64,000 nt of DNA from Clostridia bacterium (GTDB lineage: Bacteria > Bacillota > Clostridia > Oscillospirales > Acutalibacteraceae), in the NCBI GenBank assembly GCA_017430535.1, contig JAFRMR010000013.1, positions 124,001 to 188,000 on the forward strand, written 5' to 3'. Both the position numbers and the translations under genes were made by a program. Of the stretch, positions 46,184 through 51,909 are shown piece by piece. Position 1 is the first letter of the stretch; every line of letters starts with the position of its first letter. The notes beneath the pieces were generated by a model that was not told the DNA's origin, ran no database searches, and saw nothing but the letters and a program-made list of their open reading frames with translations.

Positions 46184-46185
46184 TT
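46160..46185 (-). terminator. Terminator of the eight-gene dehydratase/CooC operon
   Basis: Minus strand GCACCC-TGCG-GGGTG followed by seven U. Confidence 0.85.
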
Positions 46186-46888
46186 ACTTATCTTTTTCGC
46201 ACAGCGCCTCAACCTCATCGCAGACCGTTTTAAGGCTGCAGGTTTGGCAGTCCATGCGTATATCTTTCATTATATGGTCAAGGGCTGTGGTTATGCTCTC
46301 CGATTTTTTCATTATTGCTTCAAGCTTATCATAAGGAAAACCGGGGTCTGTAACAAAAAGAAGTTTCACCGCCTTAACCTGCGGATTCTTTTTGTATTCA
46401 TCAATAAAAAATCTGCCAATGTGCCCGAAGCTCAGGCCCTTTTTTACAGCATCTTTTCCAACCCTTGCCGCCTCGCGGTGAGTGAATGCGGAAATGCGCA
46501 TCATATATCCCTCCGGGTGGATATGATACCGGGCATATTCTATTTTTCTGATAGTTTGGTACAGTTTTTCTCCTGTGCCCATTTCATCTTCGTTAACATT
46601 CAGCAGTGCAATTCTTGCAAAAGGGGAATCACCTTTTATTTCTCCAAGGTCCTTGCCTATGAGCAGTATTTCATCCCGGGTAACAAAATCTTCCCTGTCC
46701 GTAAGCGCAATGCTGCTTAAGGCCGGCAGAGTACCGCCGCCCAGCTCATAAGCGGTATCACTCTGAAAAATTATCTGATTTTTGTCATTGCTTTCCCAGT
46801 GTGAATATTTTTGTGCTTCAAAGCTTTTTACGGAGTATTGAGAAAGTATTTCTCCAACACCTTCAAAGCATTCATCATAGAGTTTCAT
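46184..46888 (-). CDS. CO dehydrogenase beta-subunit-like protein (ACS-associated family)
   Basis: 234 aa. It resembles a family annotated near CO dehydrogenase genes: QIIFQSDTAYELGG, DEILLIGKDLGEIKGDSPFARIALLNV and GYMMRISAFTHREAARVGKDAVKKGLSFGHIGRFFIDEYKKN. The C-terminus has a Cys cluster DCQTCSLKTVCDEVEALC that could bind Fe-S or metal. Not all residues fit known acetyl-CoA synthase, and no catalytic subunit is in the window. It starts 3 bp after cooC and is last in the operon. Confidence 0.6.
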   Translation of the reverse strand: MKLYDECFEGVGEILSQYSVKSFEAQKYSHWESNDKNQIIFQSDTAYELGGGTLPALSSIALTDREDFVTRDEILLIGKDLGEIKGDSPFARIALLNVNEDEMGTGEKLYQTIRKIEYARYHIHPEGYMMRISAFTHREAARVGKDAVKKGLSFGHIGRFFIDEYKKNPQVKAVKLLFVTDPGFPYDKLEAIMKKSESITTALDHIMKDIRMDCQTCSLKTVCDEVEALCEKDK

Positions 46889-46891
46889 TAT

Positions 46892-47677
46892 TTATACATC
46901 CCCGATAAGGTTCAGTTTTTTCAGCGCATGTTTTGCGCCCTGTATCACGGCGGAGCTTCCGGGCAGGCTGTAAATGCTGTCGCCTGCAATATCGTTCATA
47001 GCAAGCCCGGGGTCATCGGGTATGAGGGCAAGTATTTCAAGGCCGGCCGTATCAAGCCTGTCTGCAACGGAAATATCCGGCAGGCGGTTTATAATCAGCC
47101 CCGCCTTGTCAAACATAACCATTTCCCCGGCAACGGTCAGTATTGTGCGTGTTACCTGCAGGCCTTTTTTGCTGGCGTCCGAAACAAGAATAAGGTGGGT
47201 AACCTTTTCCATAACCCTGCGGTTTACCTGCTCAATCCCCGCCTCGCCGTCAATAACAACATAGTCAAAGTTGCCGGCAATCATTGAGATTATCTCTTTA
47301 AGATAGGCGTTCACTTTGCAGTAGCAGCCGGCCCCTTCCGGGCGGCCTATGGCAAGGAAGGAAACATTGCCCGTTTCCTTAAGAGCATCAAACATCTGGT
47401 ATTTTGCTTCGCCCAGCAGCTCAACAGCGGCGCTTGTGTTGCCGCTTTCCGCCGTCTTAACAAAGGATTTTCTTATATCATCAACGGTAAAATCAACATC
47501 AACCCCAAGGGCGGTTGCAAGGCCTACTGCCGGGTCTGCATCAATGGCAAGTATTTTTTTGCCCGGGTAAGCTTCCGAAAGCAGGCGCACTGCAGCGGCA
47601 GAGAGGGATGTTTTGCCCACTCCGCCTTTTCCGGTGAATGCAAGAACAGTTGTTTTTTTATCCGCCGTATTCATCAT
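46892..47677 (-). CDS. cooC: CooC-like Ni-insertion ATPase
   Basis: Dimeric P-loop ATPase of the MinD/SIMIBI class; CooC inserts nickel into the CO dehydrogenase C-cluster. 261 aa: deviant Walker A FTGKGGVGKTSLSA, AIDADPAVGLA, the dimer-interface metal motif GRPEGAGCYCKVN (Cys118 and Cys120) and VVIDGEAGIEQVNRR. ATGA overlaps the cooT stop. No CO dehydrogenase gene lies nearby, so it must serve another Ni or Fe-S enzyme or one encoded elsewhere. Confidence 0.87.
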   Translation of the reverse strand: MMNTADKKTTVLAFTGKGGVGKTSLSAAAVRLLSEAYPGKKILAIDADPAVGLATALGVDVDFTVDDIRKSFVKTAESGNTSAAVELLGEAKYQMFDALKETGNVSFLAIGRPEGAGCYCKVNAYLKEIISMIAGNFDYVVIDGEAGIEQVNRRVMEKVTHLILVSDASKKGLQVTRTILTVAGEMVMFDKAGLIINRLPDISVADRLDTAGLEILALIPDDPGLAMNDIAGDSIYSLPGSSAVIQGAKHALKKLNLIGDV

Positions 47678-47862
47678 TCTGTTTTTAATATCACATAACC
47701 GTCTGTAAGGCTTGCCTTGAGTAGGCTGCCGTCAAAGGAAATTCTGCGGCCCATAAGGTCAATCAGCGTTACCTGATTTTCGGAGCACTCAATGAGCATC
47801 ACATTATTCATAAGCACGGTTTCGTCGGAAATCTCGTTTTTGTATGCGGTAGATAGGCACAT
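47674..47862 (-). CDS. cooT: CooT-family nickel-binding protein
   Basis: 62 aa. The N-terminal MCLSTAY with Cys2 is the defining CooT feature, and the rest (DETVLMNNVMLIECSENQVTLIDLMGRRISFDGSLLKASLTDGYVILK) has the small beta fold. Known CooT binds one Ni(II) per dimer through Cys2. It starts 2 bp after the small membrane ORF and overlaps cooC by 4 bp, so the nickel proteins are made together. Confidence 0.85.
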   Translation of the reverse strand: MCLSTAYKNEISDETVLMNNVMLIECSENQVTLIDLMGRRISFDGSLLKASLTDGYVILKTE

Positions 47863-47864
47863 AA

Positions 47865-48020
47865 TTACAGCTTCCTGTCTTTTTTCAGATTATCGTAATA
47901 GGGCTGAACTTTGTCATAAATCCACCTTACAAGCTTCATATCGCTGTTTGTATAGTAGATTATGAATGTAAGGGCAAAAAGTGCCGCCAGGACTATCAGT
48001 ATAATAAGCAATACTTTCAT
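47865..48020 (-). CDS. Small single-span membrane protein (51 aa)
   Basis: Not found by length filters. ATG 48020 shares its first base with the activase stop (TAATG) and the stop lies 2 bp before cooT. Residues 2-22 form one hydrophobic helix (KVLLIILIVLAALFALTFIIYY), then a charged tail with Trp, Tyr and Lys (MKLVRWIYDKVQPYYDNLKKD). The precise packing between coding genes supports a real gene. I know no family; it may tether the complex to the membrane. Confidence 0.7.
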   Translation of the reverse strand: MKVLLIILIVLAALFALTFIIYYTNSDMKLVRWIYDKVQPYYDNLKKDRKL

Positions 48021-48817
48021 TATTCAGCCGCCAGTCCTTTCTGCCGCGCAAACTCAGCTGCGCCCAGGGCGCCCATAAGCTGCGGGTCTGTTTTGAGCTC
48101 AACAACCTTTATTTTAAGCACTTTTTCAATGGCCTGTTTAAGTCCGTCGTTTTTTGCGCAGCCCCCGGTCAGTGTTATGCTGTCGGTAGCGCCCGCTTTT
48201 TTTGCCATAACAAAGCAGCGTTTTGCAACGGCAAGCTGTATGCCCGCGGCAATTTCATCCATAGGTTTTCCTTCGCCTACAAGGGATATAACCTCGGATT
48301 CCGCAAATACCGTGCACTGCGCAGTGATGGGTATGGTATTCTTTGCCTGCAGCGAGAGCTTTGAAAAATCTGAAAGGGACATTTCAAAAGCATTTGCCAT
48401 TGCCTCATAGAATCTGCCGGTACCTGCAGCGCATTTGTCGTTCATTGCAAAGTTCTTTACAGTGCCGTCCGTATCAATGGCAATGCCCTTTACATCCTGA
48501 CCGCCTATATCGATTATAGCCCTTACGCTCGGGTCCGTAACATGAACGCCCATAGCGTGGCAGGATATTTCGCTGATATTTTCATCGGCAAAGGGAACTT
48601 TATTTCTGCCGTAGCCGGTACCCACAAGGTAGGATAAATCCCTGGCAGAGGCAAGCCCGTCAACCTGGGCAACCGCATCGTTCAGCGCTATTTCCGCAGA
48701 CTGAACGGGGTTGATTTTGCTCCTGTTTGTTACATTGGCAACCATTTTGCCGTTTTCATCAAGTATTACGCATTTTGTGTAGGTTGAGCCCACATCGCAA
48801 CCGCCGAAATATTTCAT
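48020..48817 (-). CDS. 2-Hydroxyacyl-CoA dehydratase activase (HgdC/BadF family)
   Basis: ATP-driven electron-transfer activator. 265 aa of the ASKHA fold: GGCDVGSTYTKCVILDENG, the helix IDIGGQDVKGIAID, and two [4Fe-4S] ligands per homodimer, Cys129 (NDKCAAGTGRF) and Cys168 (AQCTVFAESEV), as in HgdC (one cluster shared between subunits). C-terminal GGCAKNDGLKQA. It lies 23 bp after the larger dehydratase-like gene. It would reduce that complex by ATP hydrolysis. Confidence 0.93.
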   Translation of the reverse strand: MKYFGGCDVGSTYTKCVILDENGKMVANVTNRSKINPVQSAEIALNDAVAQVDGLASARDLSYLVGTGYGRNKVPFADENISEISCHAMGVHVTDPSVRAIIDIGGQDVKGIAIDTDGTVKNFAMNDKCAAGTGRFYEAMANAFEMSLSDFSKLSLQAKNTIPITAQCTVFAESEVISLVGEGKPMDEIAAGIQLAVAKRCFVMAKKAGATDSITLTGGCAKNDGLKQAIEKVLKIKVVELKTDPQLMGALGAAEFARQKGLAAE

Positions 48818-48840
48818 ATCTGTATTCTCCTTCGTATTTA

Positions 48841-50400
48841 TTACCAGGCCGCAGTGTCGTCAAAATCCACCAGTGTGGGGTCAACGGGCTCTTCGCGCAG
48901 CACCGTGGTCATATATTTGTTTATCTGGTCACGCATATCCCGCCTTGAAATGGTGCGGGGGTCCATAAGATCCTGAGGAACCCAGATAAAGCTTACATTG
49001 TGCTCCCTTGCCTGTTCCTCAAAAATTCCGTTAAGCCCGTCCATTCCTTTACAGGAAATCTGGTCATACATAATAACCATATCTGCGTTGAATTCTTCCA
49101 CAATTCTCCACAGCTCATCCACAACATTGGCGTAGCCGCCTTTGGTATGCTTGCGCATGGTTGTTCTCTGAAGGGTTTTGGCAAATGTTGCAAGAGCCTT
49201 CTCTTTATCTTCCGTATCGTACATATAGTAGGAAATCATTGTTTCCATATCCATAATAACATTTACGCCCCAGCAGTTTTCAAGCCAGTTTGCAAGGCTT
49301 GTGTAGTAGTTTGCCGGGCAGGACCATACTATGGCTCTGTGGCGCATTTCCTTGGAACACTTTGTCTTTTTGGCATAGGCGTCAAGCATCATCTTATTGA
49401 CCTTTTTATCAACCTTTAAGAAGCGCTTGTCTATGCCGCCGGAAATATGAAAATAGAAAAGTCTGTAAAGCCAGAAAGTGGCGCCTGTCATCTGTGGATA
49501 ATCGGTTTTGTTTATCTCCCATTTCTGTATTTCATACTCGGTTTGCTTGTTGTAGGTTTTCATAGCTGAGAAGAAGGCATCCCAGTCCCACTTTTCCCCG
49601 GTCTGCTTTTCAACAAACTCAATGGCGTATTTCACCTCATCCACGGCGTATTCCTGAACATCCTCGCCGTTATAGCGCAGGGGTACATTAATGCTCTGTG
49701 TAGGAATATTGAAGCGCCTGTCAATATATGATGAATTCATAATCGAGCCGTCGCAGGGCATATTGCAGGTAAGGGAGCAGACACCCACAAGGGGATAGTC
49801 ATCATTTATTGCAACACCGGCCTCGGCAGAGGGCAGGGGGCATACATCCGCAGGCACGCCGTAGCTTTCGGTAATATCAAGGTAAACCGGCGTAATATTC
49901 TGGTCCACCATGGATGTAAGGAAAATGGGGATTGTGGTCACATGGTTATCCTTGAGGTTGGGAAAACCCGCAATAAATTCCGATGAAAAAATCTCATCCA
50001 CATTTACGGTTTTATCCGCCCACTTCGGATGCTTGTGAAAATGCCTGTCGTTGCTCAGCAGAAAGCGAATCAAATCCGTTGTGGGCTTAACCAGCATATT
50101 CATATGAAGGTGAGTGATTCTCAGCTGAGGGCCTCTCAGGCCTTCGGTATGGCGGTCAATCCACGCAGGGGCTGTGAGGTAACTCATCATCCAGCGGTAA
50201 TTGAATAAACCTTTTACTATGGAAACAGGCGCTTTAAGCGTCATAAGGATTATATCTTTCCAGGTTACAAGCCAGCGGTAGTAATCATACATTGTATCAG
50301 AAAGTCCGCGCCACTCCCTGTGCTTGAGCAGGCCCGTTTTATCCTTATGAAGGTCGCCCAGATTATGGGGCTCATTTCGCCAGAAATTCTTTATACTCAT
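48841..50400 (-). CDS. 2-Hydroxyacyl-CoA dehydratase/benzoyl-CoA reductase-like large subunit
   Basis: 519 aa, cysteine-rich, with the family core GVCSLTCNMPCDGSIMNSSYIDRRF, WSCPANYYTSLANWLENCWGVNV and MIMYDQISCKGMDGLNGIFEEQA, which provide [4Fe-4S] ligands in relatives such as HgdA/HgdB, BcrC/BcrB or the double-cubane protein. It is about 120-140 aa longer than classic subunits because of an N-terminal extension. It overlaps the partner gene by 4 bp (ATGA). The substrate is unknown. Confidence 0.85.
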   Translation of the reverse strand: MSIKNFWRNEPHNLGDLHKDKTGLLKHREWRGLSDTMYDYYRWLVTWKDIILMTLKAPVSIVKGLFNYRWMMSYLTAPAWIDRHTEGLRGPQLRITHLHMNMLVKPTTDLIRFLLSNDRHFHKHPKWADKTVNVDEIFSSEFIAGFPNLKDNHVTTIPIFLTSMVDQNITPVYLDITESYGVPADVCPLPSAEAGVAINDDYPLVGVCSLTCNMPCDGSIMNSSYIDRRFNIPTQSINVPLRYNGEDVQEYAVDEVKYAIEFVEKQTGEKWDWDAFFSAMKTYNKQTEYEIQKWEINKTDYPQMTGATFWLYRLFYFHISGGIDKRFLKVDKKVNKMMLDAYAKKTKCSKEMRHRAIVWSCPANYYTSLANWLENCWGVNVIMDMETMISYYMYDTEDKEKALATFAKTLQRTTMRKHTKGGYANVVDELWRIVEEFNADMVIMYDQISCKGMDGLNGIFEEQAREHNVSFIWVPQDLMDPRTISRRDMRDQINKYMTTVLREEPVDPTLVDFDDTAAW

Positions 50401-51596
50401 TTCGCCTGCTCCTTTGCTTTCTGGATTTTCTTTATTTCAAGGCTTTCAACAAAGGCTTGCACCCTGGTTCTCAGCTGGCCTGATGCGCTTGCCGTATACT
50501 GGCGGTCAACGCAGACTGAGGGTATGCCGAAATCGTTTGTAACAACATGTGAGGCCAAGGCTCTTTCATAGCCCCAGTATTCGCAGAATTTAAGCTGCTG
50601 GTAAAGAACGCCGTCGGCGTGATATTCCTCAACAAGCTGTTTTACATATTCCCGTCTGCCTTCAACCTTATCCTGGGACATATACCGCGGGCACTGGCTT
50701 GTTCTCATATAGTGAAGAATAATCTGCTCAAGCACATCGCCCTCATCGGTGAGCTTTATCTCTTCCCTGCCGGGCAGAGCACCGAAGCAGAAACGGTCAG
50801 CAACCACCAGTGCGCCGGATTCTTCAATCAGCTTTGTGAAATCCGGGTCATCCATTTCCGAGCCCACCACAACAATTTTAGCCCTGTAGTTTTTCTTTGT
50901 ATCGGGAACTCTTGTTTTCAGTTCTTCCGCCGTTTCCCTGAGCTTATCAATAATAAGATACTTGGGGCAGCAGTAGGATATAAGGTTAAGCACATGATAT
51001 TCGTAGCCGGTGATGCGTGGGTTTTCTTCTTTTCTGTATTCGCCTATTTCCGTAATAAGGCGGCAGACTTCATTGTGCTCTTCAACCGCCTTGCGCAGGG
51101 CATCATCGCTTATATCCACGCCGTAAACCTCGTGAAGCTTATCAAGCACCTTTTCCTGCATCTGGCGTTTATAGTGCTTCACGGTGTGGGGAGCGATTTT
51201 GAACGGAACATCTGAAATGGTTACAAAGAATTTTTCATTATCTACAAGGTGCAGAATTTCAAAATGCTCATAGGCCCTGTTCATCTGCGAGCAGGTTTCG
51301 GAGCCGAAAAGGGCGTCAAGGTGCTGGTAGCCACCTTCAATGCCTCTTTCAACCAGTGCTTTTGAAAAACCGCAGAGGAATGAGCTCATATAATATGTAG
51401 AAATATCAAGGGAACCGGTTCTTGGGGCGCGGAGCCTTGTTGAAAAGCAGCCGGGCAGGTTCAGCAGAACCTCGGGAATATGGTAGCAGGTATAGGCAAG
51501 GCAGAGCTTGCCGTCTTTTTTTGCCTGCTGAACAAGCTCATTATTCGCCTCCTGCAGCAGGTTTTCAAACTCGTAAAGATACTTTAAATCTTTCAT
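50397..51596 (-). CDS. 2-Hydroxyacyl-CoA dehydratase-like small subunit
   Basis: 399 aa. N-terminal CLAYTCYHIPEVLLNLPGCFSTRLRAPRTGS (Cys32, Cys37, Cys50), FGSETCSQMNRAYE (Cys102) and the C-terminal RQYTASASGQLRTRVQAFVESL match the HgdB/HadC type fold. Several extra cysteines (CCPKYL, FCFGALPG, SQCPRY, FCEYWG) suggest an additional or double cluster. It starts just after the His-rich protein and overlaps the next gene, so both subunits are made in step. Confidence 0.85.
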   Translation of the reverse strand: MKDLKYLYEFENLLQEANNELVQQAKKDGKLCLAYTCYHIPEVLLNLPGCFSTRLRAPRTGSLDISTYYMSSFLCGFSKALVERGIEGGYQHLDALFGSETCSQMNRAYEHFEILHLVDNEKFFVTISDVPFKIAPHTVKHYKRQMQEKVLDKLHEVYGVDISDDALRKAVEEHNEVCRLITEIGEYRKEENPRITGYEYHVLNLISYCCPKYLIIDKLRETAEELKTRVPDTKKNYRAKIVVVGSEMDDPDFTKLIEESGALVVADRFCFGALPGREEIKLTDEGDVLEQIILHYMRTSQCPRYMSQDKVEGRREYVKQLVEEYHADGVLYQQLKFCEYWGYERALASHVVTNDFGIPSVCVDRQYTASASGQLRTRVQAFVESLEIKKIQKAKEQAK

Positions 51597-51608
51597 TTTA
51601 TCTGTCCT

Positions 51609-51842
51609 TTATTTAAGTGATTCAAGGGCCTGCCTGAGCAGTTCGTTGCCCTGATTGTATTTTTCAAGGGCGGAAAGGGTCTTTTCCCCGGCCTGTTCAT
51701 TCCCAGTTTTTGTAAGCTGCCGGGCAATCTGAGCAATTTCTTCCGAGTGGGAAATGTTATGGCTCAGCATATACTCAAGCAGCGCCTTCATCTCTTCCGG
51801 GTTTTCGCTTACAACCTTATGATGATGGTGATGTTCCTGCAT
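51609..51842 (-). CDS. Small His-rich protein at operon start
   Basis: 77 aa. It starts MQEHHHHHK (five consecutive His), a potential Ni or Zn site, then a two-helix segment (NPEEMKALLEYMLSHNISHSEEIAQIARQLTKTGNEQAGEKTLSALEKYNQGNELLRQAL). It lies 12 bp before the first dehydratase-like gene and is the first gene of the operon. Its real role is unknown; a metal-store or chaperone role is inferred from the His run and from the CooC/CooT genes downstream. Confidence 0.75.
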   Translation of the reverse strand: MQEHHHHHKVVSENPEEMKALLEYMLSHNISHSEEIAQIARQLTKTGNEQAGEKTLSALEKYNQGNELLRQALESLK

Positions 51843-51880: not shown

Positions 51881-51909
51881 ATTATATCTTAATTAAAACT
51901 CAAAATCAA
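51881..51909 (-). promoter_or_regulatory. Promoter of the eight-gene dehydratase/CooC operon
   Basis: Minus strand TTGATT (51904-51909), 17 bp, TATAAT (51881-51886). The -35 box is in a duplicated cassette also found at 46116. Confidence 0.65.

Follow-up and report, generated by a model that had tools for sequence, protein, structure and literature searches.

A conserved operon links a double-cubane-type reductase to CooC and a truncated acetyl-CoA synthase-like protein and suggests a nickel-dependent enzyme in gut and rumen Clostridia

We analysed a stretch of 64,000 nucleotides from a Clostridia bacterium (assembly GCA_017430535.1, contig JAFRMR010000013.1, positions 124,001 to 188,000), referred to below as the window, and examined an operon of eight genes on its minus strand, running from position 51842 to 46184. 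The operon joins two subunits of the 2-hydroxyacyl-CoA dehydratase/benzoyl-CoA reductase class (HgdS and HgdL) and an ATP-driven activase to a CooC-type ATPase, CooT, a protein related to acetyl-CoA synthase (ACS-like), a His-rich protein and a small membrane protein (TM); HgdS, HgdL and ACS-like are working names of convenience. This gene set suggests an undescribed nickel-dependent reductase of gut and rumen bacteria, and we think it probable, though far from certain, that the operon encodes a double-cubane reductase that is driven by ATP and comes with a nickel-insertion set of its own, derived from that of carbon monoxide dehydrogenase (CODH) and acetyl-CoA synthase (ACS). We found no description of such a linkage of a reductase with CooC and an ACS-like protein in the open literature; subscription papers lay outside the search, and a prior description is possible.

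Conservation of the operon

A preliminary description of the window had proposed an eight-gene operon, and a check of the open reading frames (ORFs) found all eight on the minus strand. As a conserved unit the operon is smaller, since a core of six genes (CooC, HgdS, HgdL, activase, TM and ACS-like) recurs, while CooT and the His-rich protein occur in only part of the loci. A genome scan with the HgdL alignment gave 299 relatives, and all locus counts given here refer to the best 80 of these 299, with 67-97% identity. Judging by their record titles, the 80 loci come from metagenome-assembled or uncultured organisms, mostly Clostridia or families within them, many of them from rumen, cecum, colon or rectum. 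The matched genes always lie on the same strand. HgdS was found in 80 loci, the activase in 78, TM in 75, CooC in 71 and ACS-like in 70, and the complete core in 65. A contig ends within 1.2 kb in six of the nine loci that lack CooC and in eight of the ten that lack ACS-like. Three loci without CooC have no contig end so near: L016 belongs to a genome in which a second contig (L126) carries the genes His-CooT-CooC-ACS-like, L045 to one with an ACS-like gene on a different contig, and L080 lacks both CooC and the activase. The position of CooC varies. In 61 loci it precedes HgdS, and 10 share the window's arrangement with CooC following the activase.

The linkage extends to distant members of the class. 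In a class sample of 343 genomes HgdL (E <= 1e-60) was found in six (G000, G209, G225, G242, G305 and G320), and ACS-like (E <= 1e-6) in the same six. With the window's own genome left out, the chance that two independent sets of five genomes coincide among 342 is about 1 in 4 x 10^10, a figure that ignores kinship. The five distant genomes all carry the block CooC-HgdS-HgdL-activase-TM-ACS-like (L100-L104). As a control we took up to 8 kb on each side of 20 other genes of the HGD-D family, best-scoring first, from 239 class genomes (three regions were shortened by contig ends); the family is common, with 93 of the 239 genomes over the cut-off. None of the 20 regions contained CooC, ACS-like, CooT, the His-rich protein or TM, and 18 contained an activase; the same procedure applied to the distant operons recovered CooC, ACS-like, TM and activase in 5/5. 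A narrower control with flanks of about 1.5 kb around 29 HGD-D loci, which include these 20, likewise gave an activase in 26 and none of the other five genes, with flanks too narrow for genes far from HgdS. Conservation across genomes, co-occurrence and the control regions rule out a chance neighbourhood, and the linkage, which the preliminary description had proposed to map, is conserved across families. A plasmid search gave no match, and among 398 genomes of a phylum sample only the window's own genome matched, a sign that the system is rare and its distribution patchy.

The reductase pair

Both subunits match PF06050 (HGD-D; 322.7 and 145.5 bits), and the predicted model of HgdL shares its fold with HadB, BzdO and the double-cubane cluster protein (DCCP); domain and fold place the pair in the superfamily of class I benzoyl-CoA reductases (BCR-I), 2-hydroxyacyl-CoA dehydratases (HAD) and DCCP. 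The alignment confirms HgdS as the double-cubane-type subunit, with all six predicted ligands kept: C37 (83/84 rows, the single miss being an X) and C75, C102, C270, C302 and C338 (84/84 each) align with C36, C73, C100, C263, C293 and C327 of BzdN. In HgdL, C187 and C450 align with C95 and C380 of BzdO, and C216 falls one column off C128. As to the acid/base pair Glu65 and His131 of BzdO, HgdL has Ser219 (90/90) three residues past Cys216, in a part of the alignment that is uncertain by one residue. HgdL has two further conserved cysteines, Cys208 (88/90) and Cys376 (90/90); the profile alignment of HgdL with HgdS was too weak for placing them. Second HgdS-HgdL pairs without adjoining CooC, activase or ACS-like genes were seen at L105:9525-12271, L106:8999-11941 and L100:7136-10335, in genomes that also hold a full operon.

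Known systems share parts of this arrangement. DCCP (6eno, 7yyl) has the same fold, an ATP-driven activase and the six [8Fe-9S] cysteines, the ligands of HgdS having been mapped through BzdN; however, it is a homodimer (PMC11971306), whereas the operon encodes two different subunits and adds CooC and ACS-like. The class I benzoyl-CoA reductases BzdNO (8s02) and MbdNO (9g87) also pair one BzdN-like subunit of the double-cubane type with one BzdO-like [4Fe-4S] subunit, but the operon has a single activase gene in place of a BzdPQ pair, and they lack the extra Cys208 and Cys376 of HgdL as well as the CooC and ACS-like genes. In HAD (2-hydroxyisocaproyl-CoA dehydratase, 3o3m) the second subunit keeps only a [4Fe-5S] remnant (PMC11971306), while HgdS retains all six cysteines. 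The cut-offs of the corresponding models were not reached: the DCCP model NF040772 (cut-off 350) gave 149.6 for HgdS and 47.1 for HgdL; among BzdN, BzdO, BcrB and BcrC the best score of HgdS was 101 against 453.8 and that of HgdL 22.6 against 448.6; and the HadB and HadC models gave 87 against 700 and 24.1 against 750. None of the eight operon genes belongs to an aromatic pathway.

Activase and accessory proteins

The activase matches TIGR00241 (214.8 bits, cut-off 125.4), with Cys129 in 81/81 aligned rows and Cys168 in 80/81. For the ATPase, the best of 16 PDB sequence matches was 3kje, CooC1 of Carboxydothermus (species as named in PMC6006190), at E 7.1e-13 and with the CxC motif aligned. 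Its two cysteines are conserved (C118 in 76/77 rows, C120 in 77/77), and the Walker A motif GKGGVGKT is kept. By sequence, CooC1 appears to be its closest relative, in keeping with membership of the CooC family. CooC1 is described in PMC6006190 as binding nickel at the CxC motif, in competition with zinc. CooT scores 54.1 bits with PF10133 (cut-off 27), with Cys2 in 19/19 rows. The identities that had been given to the two reductase subunits, the activase, CooC and CooT thus all stood.

The protein first described as CODH-beta-like is indeed related to CODH/ACS, and turned out to be a truncated ACS. It matches PF03598 (CdhC; 27.9 bits, cut-off 24) and, over its 234 amino acids, has the fold and sequence of the ACS middle domain plus a cysteine tail, C214-x2-C217-x5-C223, which is modelled at low confidence (pLDDT 50-64). 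It differs from CdhC/AcsB in this tail and in lacking the N-terminal domain, the A-cluster domain and the CGC motif; a full ACS at L127 has the A-cluster domain with CGC. The nickel ions of the A-cluster sit in the domain that carries this motif.

CooT (11/80 loci) and the His-rich protein (9/80) are clade-specific extras outside the six-gene core. H28 and H32 of the His-rich protein are present in 17/17 rows, and a homologue adjoins CooT in L063, L100 and L121-L126. At L063:3083-13200 two copies of the operon lie in tandem, one of them with CooT and the His-rich protein, and a single activase gene was found for both. In L121-L125 the His-CooT pair stands apart from the operon, whose locus has no CooT inside; these five genomes gave no match to CODH, urease, NiFe hydrogenase or LarA. 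In an acetogen-type CODH/ACS region (L127:7764-11017, minus strand), ACS is followed by CooT, a protein of 140 aa and a homologue of the His-rich protein of 73 aa (weak, 22 bits).

In content the set resembles CooC/CooT/CooJ, the CODH maturation set of R. rubrum, having CooC with CxC, CooT with Cys2 and a His-rich protein, which is likened to CooJ by its richness in histidine only. It differs from the R. rubrum set in the lack of a CODH in 51/51 genomes. A survey of CODH operons (eLife, 2026) describes CooC, CooJ and CooT beside CODH. Another parallel is the isrA operon of Acetobacterium with hypA and hypB, which, as far as the account in PMC10134865 goes, also combines a redox enzyme with nickel chaperones and has no [NiFe]-hydrogenase genes, but enzyme family and chaperones are different ones. 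For 73% of 988 IsrA homologues, HypA is given there as lying no more than five genes away.

Nickel clients in the operon genomes

The CODH catalytic subunit (TIGR01702) was found in 0/51 genomes, comprising the window's own and those of 50 of the 80 loci, the latter of unstated completeness. Service of CooC and CooT to a CODH elsewhere is rejected for these 51 genomes. The preliminary description had named as contrary evidence a CODH elsewhere in the genome to which cooC and cooT would belong, together with an unconserved link to the dehydratase genes; we found no CODH, and the linkage is conserved. Across the class sample CODH is over the cut-off in 67/343 genomes.

Other nickel-dependent families were searched in 53 genomes, which gave seven with NiFe hydrogenase, none with urease, and 12 with a member of the LarA family over the cut-off, plus one weak match. 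The window's own genome has a LarA-like gene; the LarA cofactor is made by other proteins. When G209 and G305 (CODH) and G242 (NiFe hydrogenase and LarA) are set aside from the 21 genomes with CooT, 18 remain; none of these 18 has a match to CODH, urease or NiFe hydrogenase, and in 12 of them LarA is missing as well. In those 12 genomes the operon is the only nickel client visible among the families tested, with the caveat that assembly gaps are possible.

Layout and flanking genes

The features of the operon are collected in Table 1. The overlaps of 4 or 1 nt that had been described for most joints are found at three of seven, HgdS/HgdL (4 nt), activase/TM (1 nt) and CooT/CooC (4 nt); the remaining four joints are gaps of 12, 23, 2 and 3 nt. 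The promoter-like site in the table is one of 20 that a consensus scan found in the region, where shuffling gives an expectation of 11.8. After the gene preceding the operon a hairpin with a T-run can be seen by eye but is missing from the terminators that the scan listed.

Table 1. Features of the operon in order of transcription, with positions in the window.
Feature	Positions	Strand	Length (aa)	Remarks
Promoter-like site TTGATT-17-TATAAT	51881..51909	-		upstream of operon; consensus match only
His-rich small protein	51609..51842	-	77	HHHHH near N-terminus; opens operon in window; not core
HgdS, HGD-D subunit	50397..51596	-	399	six [8Fe-9S] double-cubane Cys (C37, C75, C102, C270, C302, C338), by alignment
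HgdL, large HGD-D subunit	48841..50400	-	519	N-terminal helical extension; [4Fe-4S] Cys187/216/450, by alignment
Acyl-CoA dehydratase-type activase (ATPase)	48020..48817	-	265	Cys129, Cys168
TM, small protein	47865..48020	-	51	core gene; N-terminus hydrophobic, by eye a membrane protein
CooT	47674..47862	-	62	Cys2; not core
CooC-type P-loop ATPase	46892..47677	-	261	GKGGVGKT, Cys118-x-Cys120
ACS-like, truncated acetyl-CoA synthase-like protein	46184..46888	-	234	middle domain; C214-x2-C217-x5-C223 tail; no CGC motif

A survey of the flanks took in as many as four ORFs of at least 70 aa on each side of the 80 loci; most of the resulting clusters are unannotated, and no flanking family is common to more than 11 loci. 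Two clusters reach this maximum of 11 loci; by eye they resemble a sugar-type transporter and a methyltransferase, and their distance and strand vary. A class I methyltransferase-like gene (by eye) lies 0 or 2 nt downstream of ACS-like in L051 and L068. In L104 (13232-16520) a 972-aa FAD/[4Fe-4S] oxidoreductase and then HypA follow, 20 nt downstream of ACS-like. The domain content of this oxidoreductase resembles that of the putative isoprene reductase IsrA, a likeness by domains and not by sequence comparison, and L104 is the only locus with this pair directly after the operon. L100 has an FMN oxidoreductase of the old-yellow-enzyme type after the operon. Upstream of it, L101 (3045-6582) has an aldehyde:ferredoxin oxidoreductase, a ThiS-like protein and an iron alcohol dehydrogenase, and L102 (479-2659) has, further off, a similar oxidoreductase and a small protein by eye. 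The neighbours in L104 and L100 are single cases and give only a hint of unsaturated substrates; as a substrate clue we set the flanking genes aside, since such neighbours are confined to one or two genomes and no family exceeds 11/80. In the flank of L040 (13950-14020) a fluoride riboswitch was matched (Rfam RF01734, 34.9 bits, gathering threshold 34).

Discussion

By analogy with its relatives, the activase would hydrolyse ATP and drive low-potential electrons into HgdS-HgdL, where the [8Fe-9S] double cubane of HgdS would store or relay them and a catalytic cluster on three cysteines of HgdL would reduce the substrate, a candidate being some small or conjugated molecule that resists reduction. 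Gene content and motifs suggest that the complex receives its nickel from CooC, for which the truncated ACS-like protein would act as a partner or scaffold, and that CooT and the His-rich protein would assist in some clades. The nickel might go to a site in HgdL, to the ACS-like protein or nowhere, and we place most weight on HgdL. The preliminary description had suggested a nickel-containing double-cubane-type enzyme; the double cubane is borne out by the six conserved cysteines of HgdS, and because all six ligands are kept, the HgdL cluster or its vicinity, with two further conserved cysteines, is a likelier place for the nickel than the double cubane. The single catalytic cluster of this superfamily is thought to derive from a double cubane by loss of one half (PMC11971306). 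One possibility, which we put forward tentatively, is a new nickel-iron-sulfur active site in HgdL, in which the vacated half-cubane would be refilled with nickel. Cys208 and Cys376 would help to hold the metal, as would Cys361 in the clade of the window, and CooC would load it, the truncated ACS serving as its scaffold.

Several findings weigh against a nickel-dependent reductase or against this site. CooT is present in 21/56 operon genomes and so absent from most operons, and 50 of the 69 loci without it have no contig end near. No nickel riboswitch was found at Rfam thresholds in the window or in ten loci. A CODH is present in three of the six operon genomes of the class sample (G209, G305 and G320), where CooC and CooT may serve it. 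Of 17 relatives that share the family or order, none has CODH over the cut-off; since its absence is usual in the lineage, the lack of CODH in operon genomes is no enrichment and indicates only that this client is lacking. Within HgdL, Cys361 is confined to the window's wider clade; the HgdL of all five distant full operons has I, T, T, V and V at its position, so that a set of three extra cysteines was cut to two and the odds of the proposed site are lowered. Glu386 and His418 are not universal either. The second HgdS-HgdL pairs without CooC alongside keep Cys376, and Cys208 in two of three, so these cysteines do not track CooC.

In a reading without nickel, the task of CooC and the ACS-like protein would be to build or mend the double cubane, or a different Fe-S cluster, of this enzyme. 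The core set has these two proteins, often without CooT; CooC is a MinD/MRP-family ATPase, and the R. rubrum CooC is described as having no tight nickel binding, as far as the account in PMC6006190 goes; and the window's CooC gives weak scores with the NifH and MrpORP models (18.1 and 14 bits, both below cut-off). We consider this reading rather unlikely, as CooC is missing from the regions of up to 8 kb on either side of other HGD-D genes in the class (0/20), CooT with its Cys2 is present in more than a third of the operon genomes, and the His-rich protein has its weak homologue near CooT in the acetogen-type CODH/ACS region.

It is less likely still that the truncated ACS-like protein bears the nickel and that HgdS-HgdL with the activase is its ATP-driven reductive activator, in the manner of the MCR activation complex for the nickel of F430: the protein lacks the domain and CGC motif of full ACS, and its cysteine tail is the part modelled at low confidence. 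Least probable of all is an ordinary 2-hydroxyacyl-CoA dehydratase or benzoyl-CoA reductase that happens to have unrelated CODH accessory genes beside it. The HGD-D and activase matches and the fold that the HgdL model shares with known members would fit such an enzyme, yet the six-gene block is conserved across families, the HAD, BCR and DCCP equivalog cut-offs are missed by wide margins and, as the preliminary description had stated, there is no CoA-transferase match among the eight proteins.

If the operon does encode a reductase with its own nickel-insertion set, CooC, CooT and ACS-type proteins would gain a client other than CODH/ACS. PMC6006190 gives 111 CooT homologues and 85 CooT-containing proteomes that also have CODH, and such a reductase would explain part of the CooT genes in CODH-free proteomes. 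It would also bring a new metal to a superfamily that carries only iron-sulfur clusters in the papers covered here. The six to eight genes form a compact unit, which makes direct expression and testing for metal and substrate feasible. Should nickel be bound in HgdL, the benzoyl-CoA reductase/dehydratase/double-cubane superfamily would have its first nickel enzyme, one capable of ATP-driven reduction of a very inert substrate in gut anaerobes without CODH.

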